A DNA stretch of 23,718 bases from Bacteroidota bacterium (GCA_013696965.1 JACCXN010000064.1:1-23718); one strand, 5' to 3'. Counted from the stretch's first letter, positions 7,514 to 23,594 are shown. Notes: a model not told the origin generated them from the sequence alone. Translations and numbers: made by a program.

Positions 7514-8074
7514 TTAACCTGCTTTTTTTTCAAACTCAATTCTATTGTTTCCTTGTTGTTTTAGAAAACAAATAAGAGAATTCAATTCTTTGGAAAAATC
7601 ATTCAGCGATAAAGCGGATTGTTTTATATATTTAATTGATATTTTTAATTTGGATGGTGAATTTTCTGACAAAATAAGAAGATTGGATAAATCTAAAATA
7701 GTGGCAATTGGCTGCTTTAAATTGTGAGAAACCATAAACATCATTTCTTCCAGTGCGAATAAGTTTTTTTTCAAATATTCCTGGGTTTTATTCAGTTCTG
7801 TATTGGCTACCATTAATTCCATTGTACGTTTTTCCTTTTCGTGGTTTTGAAAAACAAGTTCCTTGTTTGCCAGGAATAATTCCTCAGCACTTTTCACTTT
7901 TTCCTTGTTTTGAAATTCAAGTTTCTCAATTGCCTTGAGTAACTCTTCAGCCTGTTTTTCCTTTTGGAGGTTTTGAAATAAAAGTTTCTTATTTGCAAGG
8001 ATTAATTCATCCGCGCATTTTTCCTTTGCTTTATTTTTAATGGAAAATTTTCTATCAGGAAAAATATTTTTCAT
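7514..8074 (-). CDS. Histidine-kinase-like protein: coiled-coil repeats plus DHp, no ATPase domain
   Basis: The product has 186 residues from ATG 8074. An in-frame TTG at 8104 would add ten. Residues 13-96 are tandem repeats of about 21-22 residues of the type EK--(S/Q)AEEL--ANKEL-FQN, predicted to form a helical linker or signalling coiled coil. Residues 104-135 contain the H-box of a HisKA/DHp domain (MVSHNLKQPIATILDLSNLL, His117). The reading frame ends at residue 186, right after the second DHp helix. The N, G1 and G2 boxes of the ATP-binding domain are absent, and no continuation exists before the convergent walJ gene. It may accept phosphate from another kinase, act as a dimerising partner, or be a truncated kinase. 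It lies 54 bp downstream of the AI-2E transporter gene, in the same direction. Confidence 0.7.
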   Translation of the reverse strand: MKNIFPDRKFSIKNKAKEKCADELILANKKLLFQNLQKEKQAEELLKAIEKLEFQNKEKVKSAEELFLANKELVFQNHEKEKRTMELMVANTELNKTQEYLKKNLFALEEMMFMVSHNLKQPIATILDLSNLLILSENSPSKLKISIKYIKQSALSLNDFSKELNSLICFLKQQGNNRIEFEKKAG

Positions 8075-8128
8075 CTGGCTTCTTTCTTTTTGTCCATTAT
8101 TCAAAAGGCATTAATAAGTTGAATTTTT

Positions 8129-12580: not shown

Positions 12581-12853
12581 TTAGTTCCCTTTAAACTTTT
12601 CAACCTTTGCTACCCCATTCTCCACAAACCCATTTGCTTTTTCTTTTAATGATTTTACTTCTTTTTTTACATCTTCAAGTATATCACCTAACTGTTCTTT
12701 GATATTCTCTGCAAGGTCATCTCCTTTAGCTGCAAGTTTTTTCATTGTTTCACTTCCTTTGTCAGGAGCAAATAAGATTCCCAGAGCTCCACCAATGGCT
12801 GCGCCCAATATTAATGCTCCAAATAATTTTGCATTGTCGTTTGACTTTTTCAT
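12581..12853 (-). CDS. YtxH domain-containing protein
   Basis: The product has 90 residues. It has the YtxH signature: a short polar N-terminus, one Gly/Ala-rich transmembrane helix (LFGALILGAAIGGALGILFA, residues 10-29), then PDKG--TR-like PDKGSETMKKLA and a long charged amphipathic helix with repeated Lys/Glu to the C-terminus. Members are induced under general stress in many bacteria and may be membrane-anchored coiled coils. The biochemical role is unknown. It follows the two Lmo0937-type genes by 38 bp and precedes the holin-like gene, separated from it by a strong hairpin. Confidence 0.85.
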   Translation of the reverse strand: MKKSNDNAKLFGALILGAAIGGALGILFAPDKGSETMKKLAAKGDDLAENIKEQLGDILEDVKKEVKSLKEKANGFVENGVAKVEKFKGN

Positions 12854-12891
12854 TTTTTTTAGTTTTTAAATTGTTTGAAATAAGAGAGGTA

Positions 12892-13047
12892 TTATATAAT
12901 CCTTCTCCCTTGAATAATTCGAAATATAACTGCAATTAATGCAATTACTAATAGCATGTGTATTAGTCCTCCGGCACTGTAACCTACAAAGCCTATTGCC
13001 CAAAGGATAACTAATACTACTGCTATGATATAAAGAATATTACTCAT
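12892..13047 (-). CDS. Lmo0937-family mini membrane protein
   Basis: The frame encodes 51 residues, read directly from the minus strand: MSNILYIIAVVLVILWAIGF, then VGYSAGGLIHMLLVIALIAV and IFRIIQGRRII. This is the Lmo0937-family pattern: an N-terminal hydrophobic helix with a central Trp, GY-SAGG-IH in the loop, then a second helix and a basic tail. These proteins sit in general-stress clusters with YtxH and CsbD proteins. It is the intact copy of a tandem duplication: the upstream copy at 13057-13227 is broken. The next gene downstream is ytxH. Confidence 0.85.
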   Translation of the reverse strand: MSNILYIIAVVLVILWAIGFVGYSAGGLIHMLLVIALIAVIFRIIQGRRII

Positions 13048-13056
13048 GATTTAATT

Positions 13057-13227
13057 TTATTTAAGCGTGAAATTATTTAATTCATTTCCTTTGATAATCC
13101 TAAAAACAACCGCAATTAATTCAATCGCTAATAGTATGTGTATTGTTTCTGGTGCACTATAACCAATAAAGCCTATTGCCTAAAGAATAACTAATACTAC
13201 TGCTATAATACTAAGGATGTTTCCCAT
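13057..13227 (-). pseudogene. Lmo0937-family paralogue with TGG-to-TAG nonsense codon
   Basis: This frame of 57 codons is a tandem duplicate of the gene at 12892-13047. It reads MGNILSIIAVVLVIL, then TAG (13180-13182), then AIGFIGYSA...IHILLAIELIAVVFRII and a different tail, NELNNFTLK. The amber codon replaces the Trp16 codon (TGG) of the intact copy, a one-base change. The AGG after SA has become PET, so the copy is also diverging at the conserved loop. Only 10 bp separate the copies. Confidence 0.8.
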
Positions 13228-13238
13228 GATTGTATTTT

Positions 13239-13842: not shown

Positions 13843-14541
13843 TTAAAATAAACATGTAAATCCAAGGTAAGCTGAGTTTGTTCTAACAATGGCTCTATCC
13901 AGAATATAATAAGTACCATCGGCAGGCTGGTTTGTATTGCTTACATTTACAAAACCATATACTCCACGGTATCCAATATCCAAACGAAGGGTTTTCTTTG
14001 AATTAAGAATAAATTCAAGTCCTGCTCCGTATGCGGCACCAAAATCACCACTTTTGGTTGAAATAACAGTTTGTAAAGTATCCGAATCACCACCTCCTGC
14101 AGTTGTAACACTTGCTCCTAAACTATATCCTATTTGAGGCCCGAATTCAACTTTTAAATTAACAGGATTAGATTTACCTGTATTAAGCGAAAGCAGCAAA
14201 GGAATATTTACATAACGCACATTAAATTCACGCTGCATATCATTGTCTGTATATTTTTGTGAAAGTGAGTTGTAAATAATCTCTCCTGATAATCCAACAT
14301 GGTTGGAAAAATTAAAACCGAGAATGGCTCCAAATCCATATCCCAGTGTAGCTTCTCCTTTTATAGTTCCTCCACTTGAAGTTTGCATATCAAAAGAAGA
14401 AAGCGTAGGCATAAAACGCACTCCAAATTCTACTCTGTTAAAGTCGGGCTTTGGCGTTGCAACCATCATTGAGTCTTGTGCTTTTACCTTTGTACCAAAG
14501 GCTAAAGCAAATAGTCCGATTATTATTAAAGATTTTTTCAT
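13843..14541 (-). CDS. PorT-family outer-membrane beta-barrel protein
   Basis: This is a 232-residue protein with a signal peptide (MKKSLIIIGLFALAFGTKVK AQ). The beta-rich mature part includes VEFGVRFMPTLSSFDMQ, LGYGFGAILGFNFSNHVGLS, FNVRYVNIPLLLSLNTG and VNLKVEFGPQIGYSLGA, and it ends ...RTNSAYLGFTCLF, with a terminal Phe as usual for barrels. 'YVNIPLLL..NTG...L..GPQ.GY' is the PorT-like/outer-membrane beta-barrel family pattern. It follows the coiled-coil lipoprotein gene by 75 bp and precedes another barrel gene. Its place in the stress run suggests the regulon remodels the outer membrane. Confidence 0.8.
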   Translation of the reverse strand: MKKSLIIIGLFALAFGTKVKAQDSMMVATPKPDFNRVEFGVRFMPTLSSFDMQTSSGGTIKGEATLGYGFGAILGFNFSNHVGLSGEIIYNSLSQKYTDNDMQREFNVRYVNIPLLLSLNTGKSNPVNLKVEFGPQIGYSLGASVTTAGGGDSDTLQTVISTKSGDFGAAYGAGLEFILNSKKTLRLDIGYRGVYGFVNVSNTNQPADGTYYILDRAIVRTNSAYLGFTCLF

Positions 14542-14616: not shown

Positions 14617-15045
14617 TTAACTGAAAAAATTGCTTAATGCCTTTCCTAACTCTTCAAGATCACTGTTGAATTTCGATTTAAAATCTGCCCATTTTTCTTT
14701 TCCCTCTACCTTGTAATCATCCATTTTCTTTTTTGTGTCAGTGTTTTTTCTTTCTAATTCTGCTATTTTCTTTCTATAATCAGCTTTAACATCATTTTTT
14801 TCATTCTCAATTCTTGCATTAAAATCTGCAATAATTTTGTTATTCGCCTCAATTTTATTTTCAACTTCTTTACGGTATTTTTCAACTTCTTCCAAATGTT
14901 CCTTGTTGGCTTTTTCTAATTCCCAGTTTGCATCTATAACCTTGTTCTCTGCTTGTTCTACCTTATCTGTTGTTGAGCTGCAACTTGTAAATATTGCTGC
15001 TGATAAACAAGTGTAAATTGATAGTGTTAAGATTGAATTTTTCAT
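14617..15045 (-). CDS. Coiled-coil lipoprotein of the stress cluster
   Basis: The product has 142 residues. A lipoprotein signal peptide ends in IFTSC-SS (Cys22 would be lipidated), so the protein should be anchored in the inner or outer membrane. From about residue 30 to the end it is an almost uninterrupted charged helix (EQAENKVIDANWELEKANKE..., IENEKNDVKADYRKKIAELE), predicted to be a coiled coil of about 100 residues. No named domain is recognised. It follows the CsbD-like gene by 44 bp, with no space for a separate promoter of the type found here, so both are likely read from the shared motif promoter at 15309-15373. Confidence 0.75.
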   Translation of the reverse strand: MKNSILTLSIYTCLSAAIFTSCSSTTDKVEQAENKVIDANWELEKANKEHLEEVEKYRKEVENKIEANNKIIADFNARIENEKNDVKADYRKKIAELERKNTDTKKKMDDYKVEGKEKWADFKSKFNSDLEELGKALSNFFS

Positions 15046-15089: not shown

Positions 15090-15272
15090 TTACAAATCAG
15101 AAATTAATTTTTGGATCTCTTCTTTTGATTTACCAAACTTTTTCTGTAACCTTTTTAGAATTTCTTCCCTTTTGCCCTCTTCTAATAAGAGTTTGCTATT
15201 TGTAAGGTTATTGAGTTTTTGTTTGAGTATCTTTTTTATCTGATCCCAGTTTTCGTCAGATGAATCACACAT
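15090..15272 (-). CDS. CsbD-like general stress protein
   Basis: The frame gives 60 residues from ATG 15272. Upstream codons in frame (to 15311) run into the promoter -7 box and are excluded. The chain has the CsbD-like layout NWDQIKKILKQKLNNLTN, then LLLEEGKREEILKRLQKKFG and KSKEEIQKLISDL, matching the W--(I/L)K-KLKQK---LT / EGK--E---RLQ-K-GK-KEE--K pattern. CsbD-type proteins are small, hydrophilic and induced by stress, with unknown biochemistry. It is the first gene after the strongest shared-motif promoter and heads the run toward the mla genes. Confidence 0.75.
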   Translation of the reverse strand: MCDSSDENWDQIKKILKQKLNNLTNSKLLLEEGKREEILKRLQKKFGKSKEEIQKLISDL

Positions 15273-15308: not shown

Positions 15309-15373
15309 CAAAGGTGCGCAAGTAAGGGGCGATAATTGTTACACAACTTATTAAATTAGTTACATCATTCACA
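15309..15373 (-). promoter_or_regulatory. Shared-motif promoter A, upstream of csbD-like gene
   Basis: In + strand letters, half-sites TTACACAACTT (15339) and TTACATCATTCACA (15360-15373) are 21 bp apart. The CAAAGGTG at 15309-15316 (CACCTTTG on the minus strand) is the -7 box. Exactly 22 nt separate the two elements. The TTTG is 37 nt from the ATG at 15272. The same layout occurs at two other promoters in this window (15936-15999 and 20796-20860). Confidence 0.75.
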
Positions 15374-15486
15374 GTTTTGATTTTTGGAAACAACACTATT
15401 TCAACTCATCCTATCCATTATGCTATCAGCAATCCAAATGCAAGTATTGTTTTTTGCATTTAATTTTATGCGCGTTATATAACCTT

Positions 15487-15906
15487 TTATGCTTTTGATG
15501 TTAATTTAAAATACTCATTCACACTATTAAGGATTTCCTGGGTATCAAAGGGTTTTAAATAATTGGCAATAATTATTAATTCCTTTACACTTAATAATCT
15601 GTCTATGCATTGTGAATTGGTGCATATTATTGGAAGGGATTTTCCTACCAAAGCTTTTTTAAATAAATATAAACAGGAGGAAGTACTTGGTGCTGTATCT
15701 GAAATAACCAAATCTGGTTTAATGTTTGAGTGGGACTGGTCAAAGGAATTGGCCCGCACAACTTTATAACCGCTTTGTTCCAGTTTTTTTTGTAACTCTA
15801 AACCTATGATCGACTGTTCATCTATGATAAGAATTTTTTTAGCAAGAATTGACTTTAAATTTCCCATAACCCTGGTATTTAATATTGTTTTTTGACATTC
15901 ATCCAT
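15487..15906 (-). CDS. Stand-alone response-regulator receiver (REC) protein
   Basis: The product has 139 residues. From about residue 22 it forms a single receiver domain: KKILIIDEQ holds the acidic pair Asp29/Glu30, PDLVISD gives the phospho-acceptor Asp70, Thr96 follows PIICT, and Lys118 lies in NYLKPF. All receiver residues are present, although the loop after Asp70 (TAPSTSSCLYLF) is atypical. There is no DNA-binding or other output domain, so it may act as a phosphate carrier or by protein contact. ATG 15906 fits the promoter at 15936-15999 (30 nt from its TTTG). An internal Met14 is possible. It is read in the same direction as the stress run. Confidence 0.8.
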   Translation of the reverse strand: MDECQKTILNTRVMGNLKSILAKKILIIDEQSIIGLELQKKLEQSGYKVVRANSFDQSHSNIKPDLVISDTAPSTSSCLYLFKKALVGKSLPIICTNSQCIDRLLSVKELIIIANYLKPFDTQEILNSVNEYFKLTSKA

Positions 15907-15935
15907 AAAGTATTTTATAAATGAAGATTGCTTAT

Positions 15936-15999
15936 CAAAGGTGAAGTATAAAAAGGAGGAAAGTGTTACAAATTTTTTAAAAAAATTACATTATTCACA
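15936..15999 (-). promoter_or_regulatory. Shared-motif promoter C, upstream of the receiver gene
   Basis: In + strand letters, half-sites TTACAAATTTT (15966) and TTACATTATTCACA (15986-15999) are 20 bp apart. CAAAGGTG at 15936-15943 is the -7 box (CACCTTTG on minus), identical to that of promoter A. The gap between operator and box is again 22 nt. The TTTG lies 30 nt before the ATG at 15906. Confidence 0.7.
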
Positions 16000-16317
16000 C
16001 TTTGATTAAAACAATTGGATTGGTTTGAGTGAAGTGGAAATTAATTATTTAAGGCAGTTAAAACAGCTCCTTTTATAGTTTATTGTTGCAATTCAAGCCT
16101 GCCTTATTCAAACTATTTCTGGCTGTAATAATTCTATGGTTTTTGATTTAAATAAAAGGAAAAAAGGTTGAATTTCCATGTTATAACCAAAGGTTCACGC
16201 GCTCCGTTTACTACCTGATTTTATCCAGGTTTTAACCATTCCCAAAAGTGTTTGCAATTCAAAAGGATATTTTCATTCAATTAATTCTGCCAAGAAAAAA
16301 ACGAACTTTTATAAGAA
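16000..16317. other. Gene-less stretch between the DUF748 gene end and the receiver promoter
   Basis: About 320 bases of AT-rich sequence with no open frame over 25 codons that resembles a gene. I see no strong hairpin with a T-run for the upstream transcript's end, and no repeat shared with other parts of the window. It is the 3' flank of the DUF748 gene (stop at 16318) plus the region upstream of promoter C. Confidence 0.5.
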
Positions 16318-18633
16318 TTATAATTTAAAAACCGGCAGTTCTTTTTTACGTTCTGCCTTATCGTTTATTTCATTCATTTTTTGGTAAGCCTTAATTAAAG
16401 ATTCTGGAAACTCACTTTTGTATTCGATTTTGTAAAATGAAAATCCATTGTAAGGAACAACCCGCTGTTCAGAGGAAAACTTTACCTGGTTTCTCACCTC
16501 TTCTTTCTTAAAACAGGAAAGAAAATCTTCTTCTCTTTGCTTGTTTAATTGTTTATACTTTGAATTAAGAAAAGATGCATCAAGCAGTCTTATGCATTTT
16601 TCCTGCACGGTAAATAGCAATGAATCTTTAACCTGGGTGTTTAAATAGTGAATAAATTGAGCATCTTTTACCGACATTTTTTCAACTTTTATTGAGTCGA
16701 GTTCATTGAAGGTTTTGGAGGTTTTATTGTTGAAAGTAAGGAAGTATTTCTTCTTTGCCTCATAAAACAAAATGTATTCTTTTTCTTTAAGTTCAAAGTG
16801 ATGAGGATGTACTACAATGTTTTCTTCAGGATTTTTTTTCAGAAATTCTGCGAGTTTTTCAATAAATTTATTCTGGTCAGAAAACAGAAAACTCTGGCGA
16901 GTATTCCACGTTAAAACAAAGGATTCTTCAATTTCGGTTTCAATGCTGTTTACCTTCATTCTATAAGGTGTTGTAGGAGGTTTTACAAAAATGTTTTCTA
17001 ATAAATTCAAGAATACATCACGTAAATTAAATTTAGGATTCTTTAGATTTCCTGTAATTGGTATTTCGTAATCAATAACATTGTTGCCATCTCTTACAAA
17101 TGCCATTACCAGTGGCATAGGTATGTATTTAACGCTTTTGTTTTTTATTCTGCTACTCGTGCGGGGGTCTGTAATAAGCAAATGATTTTCACTATTTATA
17201 ACTCCATCTCTCACATGCCAGGTGCCATTAAATCCAATGGTTCCTCTATCTAATGGGAAAGAAGTATATTCGATAGTGTAAGGGTTAAACATAGCCACAG
17301 GAAGATTCTGCAAATTATAATGTAAATCAAAATCTGAACTGTCTTTAGGGTTTATGCTAAGGGTTCCGGAAAAATCACCATAAGGTTTAATTCCTGATTT
17401 AACGGATACATTTACACGCTTGTTATTTGTATCAATTGAATCAGCTATTATAGTGAGTGGATTTAATTCAATTGTAAATTTTTCATTTAAAGAATAGTCA
17501 TTGAATTTTATATCGCTATTGTAAATTGCCAGTTTGTCGACTTTGTAATGACTTTGTAAAAAATTTTGCGAAATCAGTTTTATATAATTTGCTATTTCAA
17601 TAACAAGATTAAATTTAGTATTATTTGCAATTGTGTTCTCAATGTTATTTCCATTTTTCCCGAACATAGTCTGTAAATTGTCAAGGGAATCATAGCGCTC
17701 ATATTTAAAGTAAGGGCGGTTAAGTATTATTGAATCATAGAAATACATCTGTTTTAACGGGCTTAATTCATTTATTGATATAGCCAGATTCTCAAAATAA
17801 GCATAGTCGTTATCAGGGGTTTTTCCAAAATGGAAATCATTGAATGCCACCATGCCCTTTGCAGTAATGTTTTTACCATTATTAAAGTTTCCTATTACAT
17901 TCATGTGCGCATCAAGGTTCGCAGAGAAGCTTCCATAGTTTGTTATATCTTTTAGATATTGTCCAATAAAGTTTAAATCATATTTGTTGGCAATAACCGT
18001 AAGACTATAATCCTTGGTGTTTACATTCATACCAAAATCTCCTTTTATATCACCATTTCCAATTCCTGGCGTAAAAGAAAAATTTGCAACAAGAGTATCC
18101 AAATTCCAACGCTTTCCTGTGCTTTGAATGTTTACCTGTTTTATAAAATAACTTATAGGCGTTACTTTATCTATGTAATAAAATTCCCCATCTTTTATAT
18201 TTATATCCAAAATATTAAAATGCACAGGAGCATTCACACTATTGGAATCTGTAGTAAATTTTTCAATAAGGTCTTCAAAATTAAATTTCAGTTTGTTTTG
18301 AATAACTATACCTCTGGGCTCATTAATAGTGATCTTGTTTATTTCATATGTTTGAGAAAACATTTTTAACATGCTAAAATTTGCATTTACTTCTTTTGCT
18401 GAAAAGAAAATGGTATCGCTATTATTCTCGTATATTTTAAGATTGCTAAGATGAATGAATCCGGTAAATGGATTTGTATATGCCCAGTCTATTGTAATTT
18501 GTCTGCCTGTATATTTTTCATCGTACTTTTGAATTAAATATTTTGTGATAGGGGAAATAAAAAGAATCACTCCCCCCACAAGGATTACAAGGACAATTCC
18601 ACTAATAAGTAGTGATTTTTTTAATTTACTCAT
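16318..18633 (-). CDS. DUF748/AsmA-like envelope protein
   Basis: This is a 771-residue protein with an N-terminal signal anchor (residues 7-28, LLISGIVLVILVGGVILFI). A mostly beta-stranded periplasmic body follows. The first part (ITIDWAYTNPFTGFIHLSNL KIYEN...FFSAKEVNANFSML) is characteristic of DUF748 and the AsmA-like/bridge-type superfamily. The middle region has repeated strands such as LNPLTIIADSIDTNN and FSGTLSINPKDSSDFDLHYN. The C-terminal 200 residues are charged and helical. AsmA-like proteins are thought to bridge inner and outer membranes in lipid transport, which would fit with the Mla genes nearby, but this is inference. It lies 117 bp downstream of the PorE-like gene in the same direction, probably co-transcribed from the shared-motif promoter. 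Confidence 0.7.
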   Translation of the reverse strand: MSKLKKSLLISGIVLVILVGGVILFISPITKYLIQKYDEKYTGRQITIDWAYTNPFTGFIHLSNLKIYENNSDTIFFSAKEVNANFSMLKMFSQTYEINKITINEPRGIVIQNKLKFNFEDLIEKFTTDSNSVNAPVHFNILDINIKDGEFYYIDKVTPISYFIKQVNIQSTGKRWNLDTLVANFSFTPGIGNGDIKGDFGMNVNTKDYSLTVIANKYDLNFIGQYLKDITNYGSFSANLDAHMNVIGNFNNGKNITAKGMVAFNDFHFGKTPDNDYAYFENLAISINELSPLKQMYFYDSIILNRPYFKYERYDSLDNLQTMFGKNGNNIENTIANNTKFNLVIEIANYIKLISQNFLQSHYKVDKLAIYNSDIKFNDYSLNEKFTIELNPLTIIADSIDTNNKRVNVSVKSGIKPYGDFSGTLSINPKDSSDFDLHYNLQNLPVAMFNPYTIEYTSFPLDRGTIGFNGTWHVRDGVINSENHLLITDPRTSSRIKNKSVKYIPMPLVMAFVRDGNNVIDYEIPITGNLKNPKFNLRDVFLNLLENIFVKPPTTPYRMKVNSIETEIEESFVLTWNTRQSFLFSDQNKFIEKLAEFLKKNPEENIVVHPHHFELKEKEYILFYEAKKKYFLTFNNKTSKTFNELDSIKVEKMSVKDAQFIHYLNTQVKDSLLFTVQEKCIRLLDASFLNSKYKQLNKQREEDFLSCFKKEEVRNQVKFSSEQRVVPYNGFSFYKIEYKSEFPESLIKAYQKMNEINDKAERKKELPVFKL

Positions 18634-18750
18634 GGGATTATAAAAATGTTGAAAATTGTTTTACTATGTTTTAAAGTATTATGATGTCAAACGGGCTCAT
18701 TCAAGAGAAGAAAGTTGAATTGATTCTCCTCTTTGAGTTTGGATTTCGCT

Positions 18751-20772
18751 TTAATTAATTTCAGTAATTTTCAATTCAACTCTTCGGTTGAGTTGCCTTC
18801 CTTCTGGATTGTCTGTTCCATTTGCATTTTTATTGAGTGCTGCTGGCATTGCTTTGCCGTATCCTTTAGCCTTCATTCGACTGGCCTTAATGCCATTTGC
18901 CTCAAGTTTGCTTACAACTGCTTGTGCCCGTTCTTCAGAAAGTTTCTGGTTGTATTTAGCATCACCTTTGCTGTCGGTATGTCCCGAAATTTCTACTTTT
19001 AGGTTGGGATTGCTTTTCATAAGTTGTAAAAGATTCTTTAATTCCACATTGGATAAAGGACGCAAAGTGGCTTTGTCGAAATCAAAGAAAATATTGTTCA
19101 AAATAATTTTTGAACCTACAACAATTGGATTTAGTAATACTTCTCTTTTTATTTCATAATAATTCGATTTCTTAGGTATTTCCATGTTTTCAGAATAAAA
19201 CAAGTGACCTTCGCCTTGATAAGTAATGTTGTAATTTTTTCCTGGTGTAAGAATAAAAAGAAATTGTCCTGTTTTACTGTTTGTGTTGTAAACCCCAACT
19301 ACTTCTTCGGTTTCATTATCAGTTACTGTAATAAAAACTTTCTTTGCAGTTTTACCTGATTCATCATAAACATTTCCTTTAATCAATGTAAGGGGCGTAG
19401 GTTCACGATTAAGGAAAGTCATTTGATAATTGTCTTTTCCACCATACCCTCCTTCTCTAAAAGAAGAGAAGTAAGCAGTACGGCTATCAGGACTAACCAT
19501 ATAAAATATATCATCGTCTGTAGTATTGATTGGATAGCCTGCATTTACTGGTTGTGACCAATTTCCATCACTGGAAAGTAAGCTGGTAAACACATCAAAT
19601 CCACCCATAGTGTTGTGTCCAGAGGAACTAAACATTAGGGTAACACCATCGGGATGAATGAAAGGAGCATCTTCATCATAAATGGTATTAATATTTGGTC
19701 CCATATTAACTGCCTTTTCCCAGTCTCCATCATGTTTACGTTTGCTTAAATATAAATCCCTACCACCAAATCCACCAGGCCTGTCGCTTGTAAAGTAAAG
19801 GCTATTGCCATCCGCTGAAATAAAGGCACTTGGTTCCCAGTGTTTTGTATTTATGTTATCGTTTAGCTTTACAGGATTGCTCCATTTGTCACCATCTAAG
19901 GATGTGGAATAGATATTTCCTATTCCATAATCATCCTTGTAAATTAATATGGTTTGTCCATCAGGAGAGATTCCTACTGTAGCCTCATGCCAGTCTGTGT
20001 TTATTGGGGCACCTATGCCTTCTGCTTTAGCCCAGCCAGTTTTGGTCTTGGTTGCCATGTAAATGTCTTCCATAAAATTGCCCTCACTGTCTTTTTGCTC
20101 GTTTTTAGTATTAGGTCTGCGCGATGTAAAAAAAAGAGTATTCTGATCGGCTGACAAAACGGGAGAGTAATCAGCATAAGGTGAGTTAATAGTACTTCCC
20201 ATGTTTTCAATCTTAACCTTCATAGGATTTGCAACCAATTGTTTTCCTGATTTACACTCCTCTATTTTTCTGTTTGTTTCTATAAAAAGGTCCTTATCCA
20301 TACTATTGTTTTCTGCCATAAGTGCTTTAAATTTTTCATAAATTTCAATGGCCTTGTCAAACTGGTAATCCAAATGATAAGCATCGCCAAGGAATTTATA
20401 GGTTATTAGCGGTGCATTTTTTTCCTTGTATGAATCTTGCTGGCAATCTTTTGAAACCGAAGTAACAGCCGTGCTGAAATAAGGAATGGCCTTAGATCTG
20501 TTTATTCTTGAACTTTGATGGCAAACACCTATTTTGAAAGCTAAATTCATGTTTTCAGGATTTTTTTCATAAAGTTCAAGGAATATTGGTAACGAGGCGG
20601 CATATCCATCTTTTGAATTATTCAACAATTCGCCTTTGGCATGTTTATAAACCTCAGAAAATGATTTTTCTGCACGATTAAAATCTTTTTCAAAAGTGCC
20701 TTTTCCGTTTTGGGCACAAAGGTTATACAGGCTCAATAAGACTAATATAGTAAGGGAAATAAGGTTTTTCAT
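18751..20772 (-). CDS. PorE-like TPR / beta-propeller / OmpA-family protein
   Basis: This is a 673-residue periplasmic or outer-membrane-associated protein. Residues 1-21 form a signal peptide (ending LCA-Q). TPR-like helices lie at about 30-170 (AASLPIFLELYEKNPEN, DAYHLDYQFDKAIEIYEKF). PD40/WD40-type blades lie at about 200-445 (VLSADQNTLFFTSRRP, FISADGNSLYFTSDRPGGFG, FIHPDGVTLMFSSSG, MVSPDSRTAYFSSF). A carboxypeptidase-regulatory-like fold covers about 455-530 (IKGNVYDESGKTAKKVFITV). A C-terminal OmpA domain (about 550-670) has IFFDFDKATLRP, SGHTDSKGDAKYNQKLSEER and LNRRVEL, with the peptidoglycan-binding Asp and Arg. This order is that of PorE of the type IX secretion system, but Bacteroidota carry several paralogues, so I give no symbol. 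It has its own shared-motif promoter. Confidence 0.85.
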   Translation of the reverse strand: MKNLISLTILVLLSLYNLCAQNGKGTFEKDFNRAEKSFSEVYKHAKGELLNNSKDGYAASLPIFLELYEKNPENMNLAFKIGVCHQSSRINRSKAIPYFSTAVTSVSKDCQQDSYKEKNAPLITYKFLGDAYHLDYQFDKAIEIYEKFKALMAENNSMDKDLFIETNRKIEECKSGKQLVANPMKVKIENMGSTINSPYADYSPVLSADQNTLFFTSRRPNTKNEQKDSEGNFMEDIYMATKTKTGWAKAEGIGAPINTDWHEATVGISPDGQTILIYKDDYGIGNIYSTSLDGDKWSNPVKLNDNINTKHWEPSAFISADGNSLYFTSDRPGGFGGRDLYLSKRKHDGDWEKAVNMGPNINTIYDEDAPFIHPDGVTLMFSSSGHNTMGGFDVFTSLLSSDGNWSQPVNAGYPINTTDDDIFYMVSPDSRTAYFSSFREGGYGGKDNYQMTFLNREPTPLTLIKGNVYDESGKTAKKVFITVTDNETEEVVGVYNTNSKTGQFLFILTPGKNYNITYQGEGHLFYSENMEIPKKSNYYEIKREVLLNPIVVGSKIILNNIFFDFDKATLRPLSNVELKNLLQLMKSNPNLKVEISGHTDSKGDAKYNQKLSEERAQAVVSKLEANGIKASRMKAKGYGKAMPAALNKNANGTDNPEGRQLNRRVELKITEIN

Positions 20773-20795
20773 CTTGAGTTTAGGTTTATTATATA

Positions 20796-20860
20796 CAAAG
20801 ATGAGTATCTTAATTGCAAAAAATATTACACAACTTTAGGAATTAGTTATATTATTCACA
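20796..20860 (-). promoter_or_regulatory. Shared-motif promoter B, upstream of the PorE-like gene
   Basis: In + strand letters, half-sites TTACACAACTT (20826) and TTATATTATTCACA (20847-20860) are 21 bp apart. CAAAGATG at 20796-20803 is the -7 box (CATCTTTG on minus), separated from the operator by exactly 22 nt. The TTTG is 24 nt before the ATG at 20772. The operator also overlaps the likely start region of the divergent GNAT gene. Confidence 0.7.
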
Positions 20861-22795: not shown

Positions 22796-23008
22796 TCAGA
22801 ACTTAATGGTAAACTCCAGGTAATCATCATCAGGTAAACTGGTAAAAGTGAATGGCCTTTTTTCTCCTATACGACTTTCTTTTTGTATGCATTCTTCTGT
22901 TGCTTTACCTGAAAGAAAAGTATATGGATTAGATTTTTCGCTTACAATTTTCAGAATCTTAAAAGCAACTTTATCTATTGGTTTTATTTTTTCAATTTGT
23001 GTTTTCAT
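22796..23008 (-). CDS. Small hypothetical protein
   Basis: This is a 70-residue soluble protein (MKTQIEKIKPIDKVAFKILK..., then TEECIQKESRIGEKRPFTFT and a short LEFTIKF end). It has no signal peptide, no membrane segment and no recognised domain. The ATG at 23008 is the only plausible start. A weak copy of the shared-motif promoter lies about 210 bp upstream, with no other gene between. It is probably a real gene, but homology support could not be checked. Confidence 0.45.
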   Translation of the reverse strand: MKTQIEKIKPIDKVAFKILKIVSEKSNPYTFLSGKATEECIQKESRIGEKRPFTFTSLPDDDYLEFTIKF

Positions 23009-23214: not shown

Positions 23215-23278
23215 CAAATGTGAGCAATTAATATAGCGCATTGTTTTAGAATTGCATCAAATATTTGCATGATTCACA
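23215..23278 (-). promoter_or_regulatory. Possible fourth shared-motif promoter (weak)
   Basis: In + strand letters, TTGCATGATTCACA (23265-23278) matches the distal half-site of the three clear copies, and CAAATGTG (23215-23222; CACATTTG on minus) matches the -7 box. The distance equals that of promoter C. The proximal half-site is poor (around 23245) and the nearest downstream ATG is about 207 nt away, unlike the 24-37 nt of the clear copies. The stretch 23009-23342 holds no gene. Confidence 0.3.
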
Positions 23279-23342: not shown

Positions 23343-23594
23343 TTAATCAAGAAGAGATGGGGCAAAAACCTGAATTAATACAACAGCGGAAAATATAATG
23401 GCAATACCAATGAAGGAAGCAACAAGAAGTCGTTTGTATCCCTTTGCTTCGGCATTCACCTCTAAAATTTTTATTAGATTGAATAAGGAATAATTGATTT
23501 TTTTAAATTGTGTTTCACTTTTAACAACATAATCAGAAGCCCCATGGGTAAATGACTTTGATGCAATTTCAATATTGTCATTTGCGGTTAGCAT
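23343..23594 (-). pseudogene. 5'-truncated receiver-domain protein with C-terminal membrane helix
   Basis: The 83-residue frame begins in the middle of a receiver domain: MLTANDNIEIASKSFTHGAS, then DYVVKSE with the conserved Lys. It continues through the last receiver helix (INYSLFNLIKILE) and ends in one membrane helix (LLVASFIGIAIIFSAVVLIQ). The acidic pocket and phospho-acceptor Asp, normally about 50 residues earlier, are missing. An in-frame TGA immediately precedes the ATG, and the 124 bases up to the window edge show no receiver N-terminus in this frame. It is most likely a remnant of a receiver-TM signalling protein. Confidence 0.55.

Follow-up and report, generated by a model that had tools for sequence, protein, structure and literature searches.

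LytTR regulators bind to direct repeats with a period of 21-22 bp, in which 9-mer consensus copies lie 12-13 bp apart; repeats in direct orientation and separated by two helical turns are likewise used by AraC proteins. At araBAD (araI1-I2) AraC occupies direct half-sites two turns apart, the proximal one overlapping the -35 region, an arrangement shared by the class II promoters of MarA, SoxS and Rob, and these promoters are activator-dependent and the systems show autoregulation. Little is known of the co-ordination of stress and envelope genes in Bacteroidota, a phylum in which few operators have been defined. Here we describe a repeated operator-promoter element which we read as defining a new regulon in patchily distributed Bacteroidota, together with a small AraC-family protein as its likely regulator. 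Our search of the open-access literature found no earlier description of the motif, of the regulator or of a link between the two, which is not proof of absence.

Operator-promoter units and their genes

The window, by which we mean the whole stretch of DNA analysed, comprises 23,718 nt of Bacteroidota bacterium GCA_013696965.1 (JACCXN010000064.1:1-23718). It holds three units on the minus strand, at the positions given by the initial annotation, each reading TGTGAATnATrTAAY ... T(G)TGTAAYA in the direction of transcription, with the box 22 nt after TGTAA in all three, the spacing which had been claimed. The first unit (65 nt, 15309-15373, 73.6 bits against our position matrix) has a half-site period of 21 bp, a 22-nt gap and the -7-like box CACCTTTG, and reads TGTGAATGATGTAACTAATTTAATAAGTTGTGTAACA-n20-CACCTTTG. 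The first regulated gene, encoding a 60 aa CsbD-like protein (15090-15272, minus strand; PF05532 E=2.7e-7, under the curated cut-off), would be driven by this unit, and the cluster behind it probably also. Further along the same strand lie genes for a lipoprotein-like coiled-coil protein (14617-15045), whose relatives are found directly behind the motif in other genomes, an outer-membrane beta-barrel protein (OMP_b-brl_2, 13843-14541) and a YtxH-like protein (12581-12853; PF12732 E=5.1e-16). At 12890-13230 on the minus strand a small membrane protein of the lmo0937/DUF5670-like type is encoded in tandem copies, the upstream one of which has an early in-frame stop.

The second unit (64 nt, 15936-15999, 53.4 bits) has the same box, CACCTTTG, and a period of 20 instead of 21, and lies upstream of, and would drive, a gene for a 139 aa receiver-like protein (15487-15906, minus strand). 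The protein had been called a stand-alone receiver, and whilst its own match to Response_reg is weak (E=0.012), it is homologous (34% identity, E=3e-17) to a better receiver located under the motif in another genome, G017. The third unit (65 nt, 20796-20860, 69.9 bits), with a period of 21 bp and the box CATCTTTG, reads TGTGAATAATATAACTAATTCCTAAAGTTGTGTAATA-n20-CATCTTTG and is upstream of, and would drive, a gene for a PorE-like T9SS/OmpA protein with PD40 repeats and an OmpA domain (18751-20772, minus strand). From the G of TTTG to the start codon we measured 37, 30 and 24 nt in the first, second and third unit, which reproduces the range of 24-37 nt reported earlier.

A fourth, weak and probably decayed copy (64 nt, 23215-23278, minus strand) scored 26.2 bits with the full matrix and 21.3 bits in its operator part; it reads TGTGAATCATGCAAAT...CACATTTG and stands ~206 nt before a truncated ferredoxin-reductase-like ORF of 70 aa (22796-23008, minus strand). 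The ORF shares 52% identity with the N-terminal part of a 222-aa reductase, the full-length gene of which is found downstream of the motif in G008 (L049). An ORF at 23343-23594 (minus strand) has its start within a receiver domain and a likely membrane helix at its end, and is possibly a broken gene; full-length receivers of this type are present in the regulon clusters of G017 and G020.

Architecture of the element

The element is 65 nt long and, read in the direction of transcription, has the sequence TGTGAATnATrTAAY-n13-TGTGTAAYA-n20-CAyCTTTG. The matrix was trained on 27 sites from five genomes, and the logo of 136 sites independent of this training set reads TGTGAATkATGTAACTTATTTcnAAAgTTATGTAACAC...CAnCTTTG. 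Its best internal self-similarity is a direct repeat with an offset of 21 bp and the core ATGTAAC. The spacing of the half-sites is exactly 21 in 242 of 245 sites (one base shorter in two), so that the receiver-gene copy in the window, with its period of 20, is the odd one, and the gap between operator and box is exact in 225 of the 245. Scanning 191 kb of shuffled sequence gave no match of at least 16 bits, and 40 Markov-1 copies of the window gave none of at least 10 bits, whilst the window units score 53-74 bits; the earlier statement that such copies are unlikely by chance is borne out.

The -7 element of Flavobacterium johnsoniae is T-12 A-11 H H T-8 T-7 T-6 G-5 (PMC6847099). On this scale the operator spans approximately -69 to -33 and the last G of the box is at -5, which would place transcription starts ~5 nt after the TTTG, rather than the ~7 nt first proposed. 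The proximal half-site overlaps the -33 region, in place of a -33 element and with its helical phase fixed, as is a feature of class II promoters, in which an activator-type site overlaps -35/-33 at a fixed helical phase. There was no sign of a separate -33 box in the collected sites, and position -12 is C in most copies, where T is usually near-invariant. Because the -33 place is taken and T-12 has become C, the promoter would look too weak to fire without an activator, and we infer that the sites are promoters of this kind. In G272 (L185 and L186) a canonical TAATTTTG box takes the place of CAnCTTTG behind this operator; an AraC orthologue was not found in this genome.

Another reading has all 65 nt acting as the promoter for an alternative (ECF) sigma factor such as SigP, given the fixed spacing between upstream element and box, and the control of T9SS genes by an ECF factor in Porphyromonas (PMC4800418). 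We give this next to no likelihood, as TTTG boxes belong to the primary sigma factor, the published SigP motif is unlike the element, and the conserved upstream part, at 37 bp and with a repeat inside it, greatly exceeds a -35 element in length.

Distribution and content of the regulon

Searching the window's own genome with the exact pattern and a free gap recovered seven sites, six of which have CAyCTTTG although the search asked for TTTG only, and relaxed searches raised the number to ~11. Allowing one mismatch, the pattern was present in 59 of 295 genomes of the class, in up to 21 copies each, whilst the reversed pattern had no match in any of the 295. Where an ORF lay downstream (199 sites), 152 sites were 20-80 nt before its start, compared to ~4% of random positions. 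The initial annotation had predicted that a scan of the genome and its relatives would place matches 20-40 nt upstream of the start codons of stress and envelope genes; the outcome agreed with this, most matches being 20-80 nt before the starts of such genes.

Among 141 first-downstream proteins, the Pfam tally was led by ice-binding-like proteins (PF11999, 29), followed by CsbD (12), T9SS sorting tails (8), receivers and outer-membrane beta-barrels (7 each), OmpA (6), YtxH (5), and MlaE, ferritin/Dps and DUF5670 (3 each). An NCBIfam search of the regulated genes added T9SS_PorE matches, and porin genes were also found behind sites. The window's cluster (CsbD-like, lipoprotein, barrel, YtxH and Mla-type ABC genes) is found again, behind the motif, in five other genomes (G017, G008, G020, G219 and G100). 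The proposal of an envelope-stress regulon thus held up, with CsbD, YtxH, Mla, receiver, OmpA and T9SS-type genes all among the members, and judged by predicted gene content it is close to certain that the element marks a stress/envelope regulon.

A candidate AraC-family activator

The clusters of other genomes include a gene for a small AraC-family protein, in some cases immediately following the motif. We take this protein, of ~190 aa and with an HMA-like N-domain (G000:C81:54721-55266), as the best candidate for the regulator. Residues 95-173 of the G000 protein match HTH_18 (PF12833 E=3e-16), the AraC/XylS double helix-turn-helix, and its AlphaFold2 model (pLDDT 89) shows a beta-alpha-beta-beta-alpha-beta N-domain followed by the AraC double HTH. 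Foldseek matched the C-terminal part to MarA (1bl0, 1xs9), SoxS (7w5w) and AraC DNA-binding domains, and the N-terminal part to the HMA domain of mercuric reductase (NmerA 2kt2, probability 1.00, TMt 0.66), in keeping with the ferredoxin-like beta-alpha-beta-beta-alpha-beta fold of model residues 2-61. The GMxCxxC metal motif is absent from the orthologue clade, which has MVSxRC, one of the two cysteines being replaced by serine, whilst many relatives under ~55% identity retain MVCxRC (CxxC). With MVSxRC instead of MVCxRC the classical two-cysteine metal site is therefore lost, and by its predicted structure and sequence the N-domain is an HMA-like fold, not a classical metal site.

The distribution of this gene follows that of the motif. 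An AraC homologue was present in all 11 motif genomes in a set of 60 relatives, the closest homologues being in the motif-rich ones. Comparing AraC matches of at least 220 bits with at least two motifs across the 295 genomes, 21 had both, 13 AraC only, 11 the motif only and 250 neither (odds ratio 37, p ~1e-15, for genomes that are phylogenetically non-independent). Despite this non-independence the association persists inside a single genus (g18), where only G017 has AraC, with 18 motifs, whilst of the AraC-less species five have none and one has a single motif.

We collected 80 named orthologue loci from Flavobacterium, Lutibacter, Paludibacter, Prolixibacteraceae and one Ignavibacteria MAG, a few of which are contigs of discovery genomes (e.g., L094 is G100 and L128 is G020). 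These contain 157 full sites, compared to none for the reversed matrix in 1.3 Mb. A full site is present in the locus (within 10 kb) in 60 of the 80 and directly upstream of araC in 32; the operator alone is present in 68, and in 46 its distance upstream of the araC start is 200 nt or less (shuffled control, 0). Five of six AraC homologues at 66% identity or more have the operator upstream of their own gene, and 24 more distant homologues (paralogues) have no obvious operator there. In homologues at ~60-70% identity (G024:C6, G247:C59, G258:C26 and G277:C56) the motif often overlaps or immediately adjoins the end of the araC match, and points at a neighbouring gene. The araC start codon is TTG in 65 of 81 loci, GTG in eight and ATG in six, the TTG lying seven codons before the ATG picked by simple ORF calling, and the retention of a weak start suggests selection for low translation. 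In most of the 81 loci araC is followed by a gene for a PAS-type histidine kinase, the domains of which we analysed in G000. The window itself has a histidine-kinase-like fragment of ~196 aa at 7514-8104 (minus strand), whose ANKEL/FQN coiled repeats are of the type found in kinases of AraC operons; it lacks an ATPase domain and has only a weak match to HisKA.

The initial annotation had compared the repeats to LytTR-regulator sites, and a LytTR-type response regulator could be pictured on them, as the 21-bp period fits, LytTR genes occur in every motif genome tested and the proximal half-site (AAAGTTATG) agrees with eight of nine positions of the LytTR consensus. The distal half-site is however a poor fit to the same consensus, presence is uninformative since LytTR is found in 31 of 34 genomes about equally with or without the motif, and LytTR genes are hardly ever near sites, being absent from the clusters read except for one neighbour. 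The small AraC gene is by contrast linked by position, autoregulatory sites and co-occurrence, so the hint of a LytTR regulator was probably wrong and we regard such a regulator as very unlikely. More improbable still is a Crp/Fnr-family protein, which was considered as TGTGA resembles a Crp half-site and a G017 gene with cNMP and Crp-HTH domains (L036:3041-3802) stands 41 nt behind its own copy of the motif; the site is a direct repeat, not the TGTGA-N6-TCACA palindrome. Its homologues are common in motif-less genomes and absent (E<=1e-30) from the motif-bearing G000 and G053, which disfavours it.

A more serious alternative is that the regulon is real but controlled by another DNA-binding protein, the AraC gene being merely a target that travels with the cluster, as an autoregulatory position alone cannot separate regulator from target. 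Motif-rich genomes without the AraC gene speak for it: AraC above 220 bits is missing in four of the 14 genomes with at least five sites (G219, G272, G167 and G208), the first three having 16, eight and six sites, respectively. These are drafts of 110-210 contigs, in which the absence of AraC is not proven, although in G219 there is no AraC homologue at all, and the syntenic spot of the gene of its congener G100 is intact without it. An assembly gap at that spot was thereby rejected as the cause. Incomplete assembly or recent loss of the gene could account for such genomes, as could regulation by another protein. In addition, no clear operator precedes araC in G000, and most loci of the psychrophilic Flavobacterium clade have no full promoter near araC. 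Set against this, no other DNA-binding family consistently accompanies the sites in the clusters read, AraC is the sole linked DNA-binding family in most loci (60 of 80 within 10 kb), and an AraC protein would require just such a direct repeat, with a period of 21 bp and overlapping -33. We therefore judge control by some other protein to be unlikely, and consider that the AraC-family protein is, from its sequence and genomic context, likely to be the regulator.

Under the mechanism we propose, each site would be an activator-dependent promoter at which the AraC protein, acting as a dimer or as a pair of molecules, occupies both half-sites from one face of the helix. With the promoter-proximal half-site overlapping -33, AraC would recruit RNA polymerase carrying the primary sigma factor; a 21-bp direct repeat reaching -33 fits such class II activation. 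AraC would also activate its own operon, usually with a PAS hybrid histidine kinase and receiver next, and the outcome would be the co-ordinated expression of ice-binding-like surface proteins, CsbD, YtxH, DUF5670 and Dps, as well as OmpA/porins, Mla transport, PorE-type proteins and stand-alone receivers. Taken as a whole, activator-dependent promoters with class II activation of a stress/envelope regulon by AraC are, in our reading of the sequences, the probable explanation. If true, this would explain the joint switching-on of ice-binding-like, CsbD/YtxH, Mla transport and T9SS-linked proteins. More tentatively, with somewhat less than even confidence, the system may be a horizontally mobile general-stress and envelope response, in which an HMA-like AraC protein without the metal-binding CxxC, coupled to a phosphorelay (the hybrid kinase of its operon and the many stand-alone receivers), fills the role that belongs to sigma-B, RpoS or EcfG in other phyla, with no alternative sigma factor in charge. 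The result provides a well-defined motif, a list of genes and a single candidate activator that offers a clear knock-out target in cultivable Flavobacterium, as well as an inducible promoter of natural origin for use in a phylum that has few such parts.

Comparison with known systems

The predicted system resembles AraC at araI1-I2 and MarA/SoxS/Rob in its direct half-sites, -35 overlap, apparently activator-dependent promoter and putative autoregulation, and MarA/SoxS also in the fold of the candidate's C-terminal domain. It differs in having a Bacteroidota -7 box (CAnCTTTG), where the araBAD and MarA systems have sigma70 promoters, in an N-domain that is HMA-like rather than arabinose-binding as in AraC of araBAD, and in serving dozens of stress and surface genes rather than a sugar operon. 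Closer in sequence are small Bacteroidota HMA-AraC proteins (annotated ‘AraC family transcriptional regulator’), with the same domain order at 40-60% identity, which are found on plasmids in Hymenobacter and Runella, among others. That the orthologue itself is plasmid-borne was rejected, as plasmid matches were only to relatives under 60% identity. The clade is set apart from these relatives by MVSxRC, where MVCxRC is frequent among them, and by its operator, found upstream of none of the 24 distant ones.

In gene content the regulon is similar to those of sigma-B (Bacillus/Listeria), RpoS and EcfG, with CsbD, YtxH and Dps under sites, and as in general stress regulons, catalase and Usp proteins are found in the same clusters. 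Unlike these it has an activator-type operator and no alternative sigma factor, with T9SS-linked genes and those for ice-binding-like surface proteins standing out. The PorXY-SigP system of Porphyromonas gingivalis (PMC4800418) is likewise a two-component pathway tied to T9SS-related genes in Bacteroidota, but differs in its ECF sigma factor, its unrelated motif and its lack of an AraC protein.
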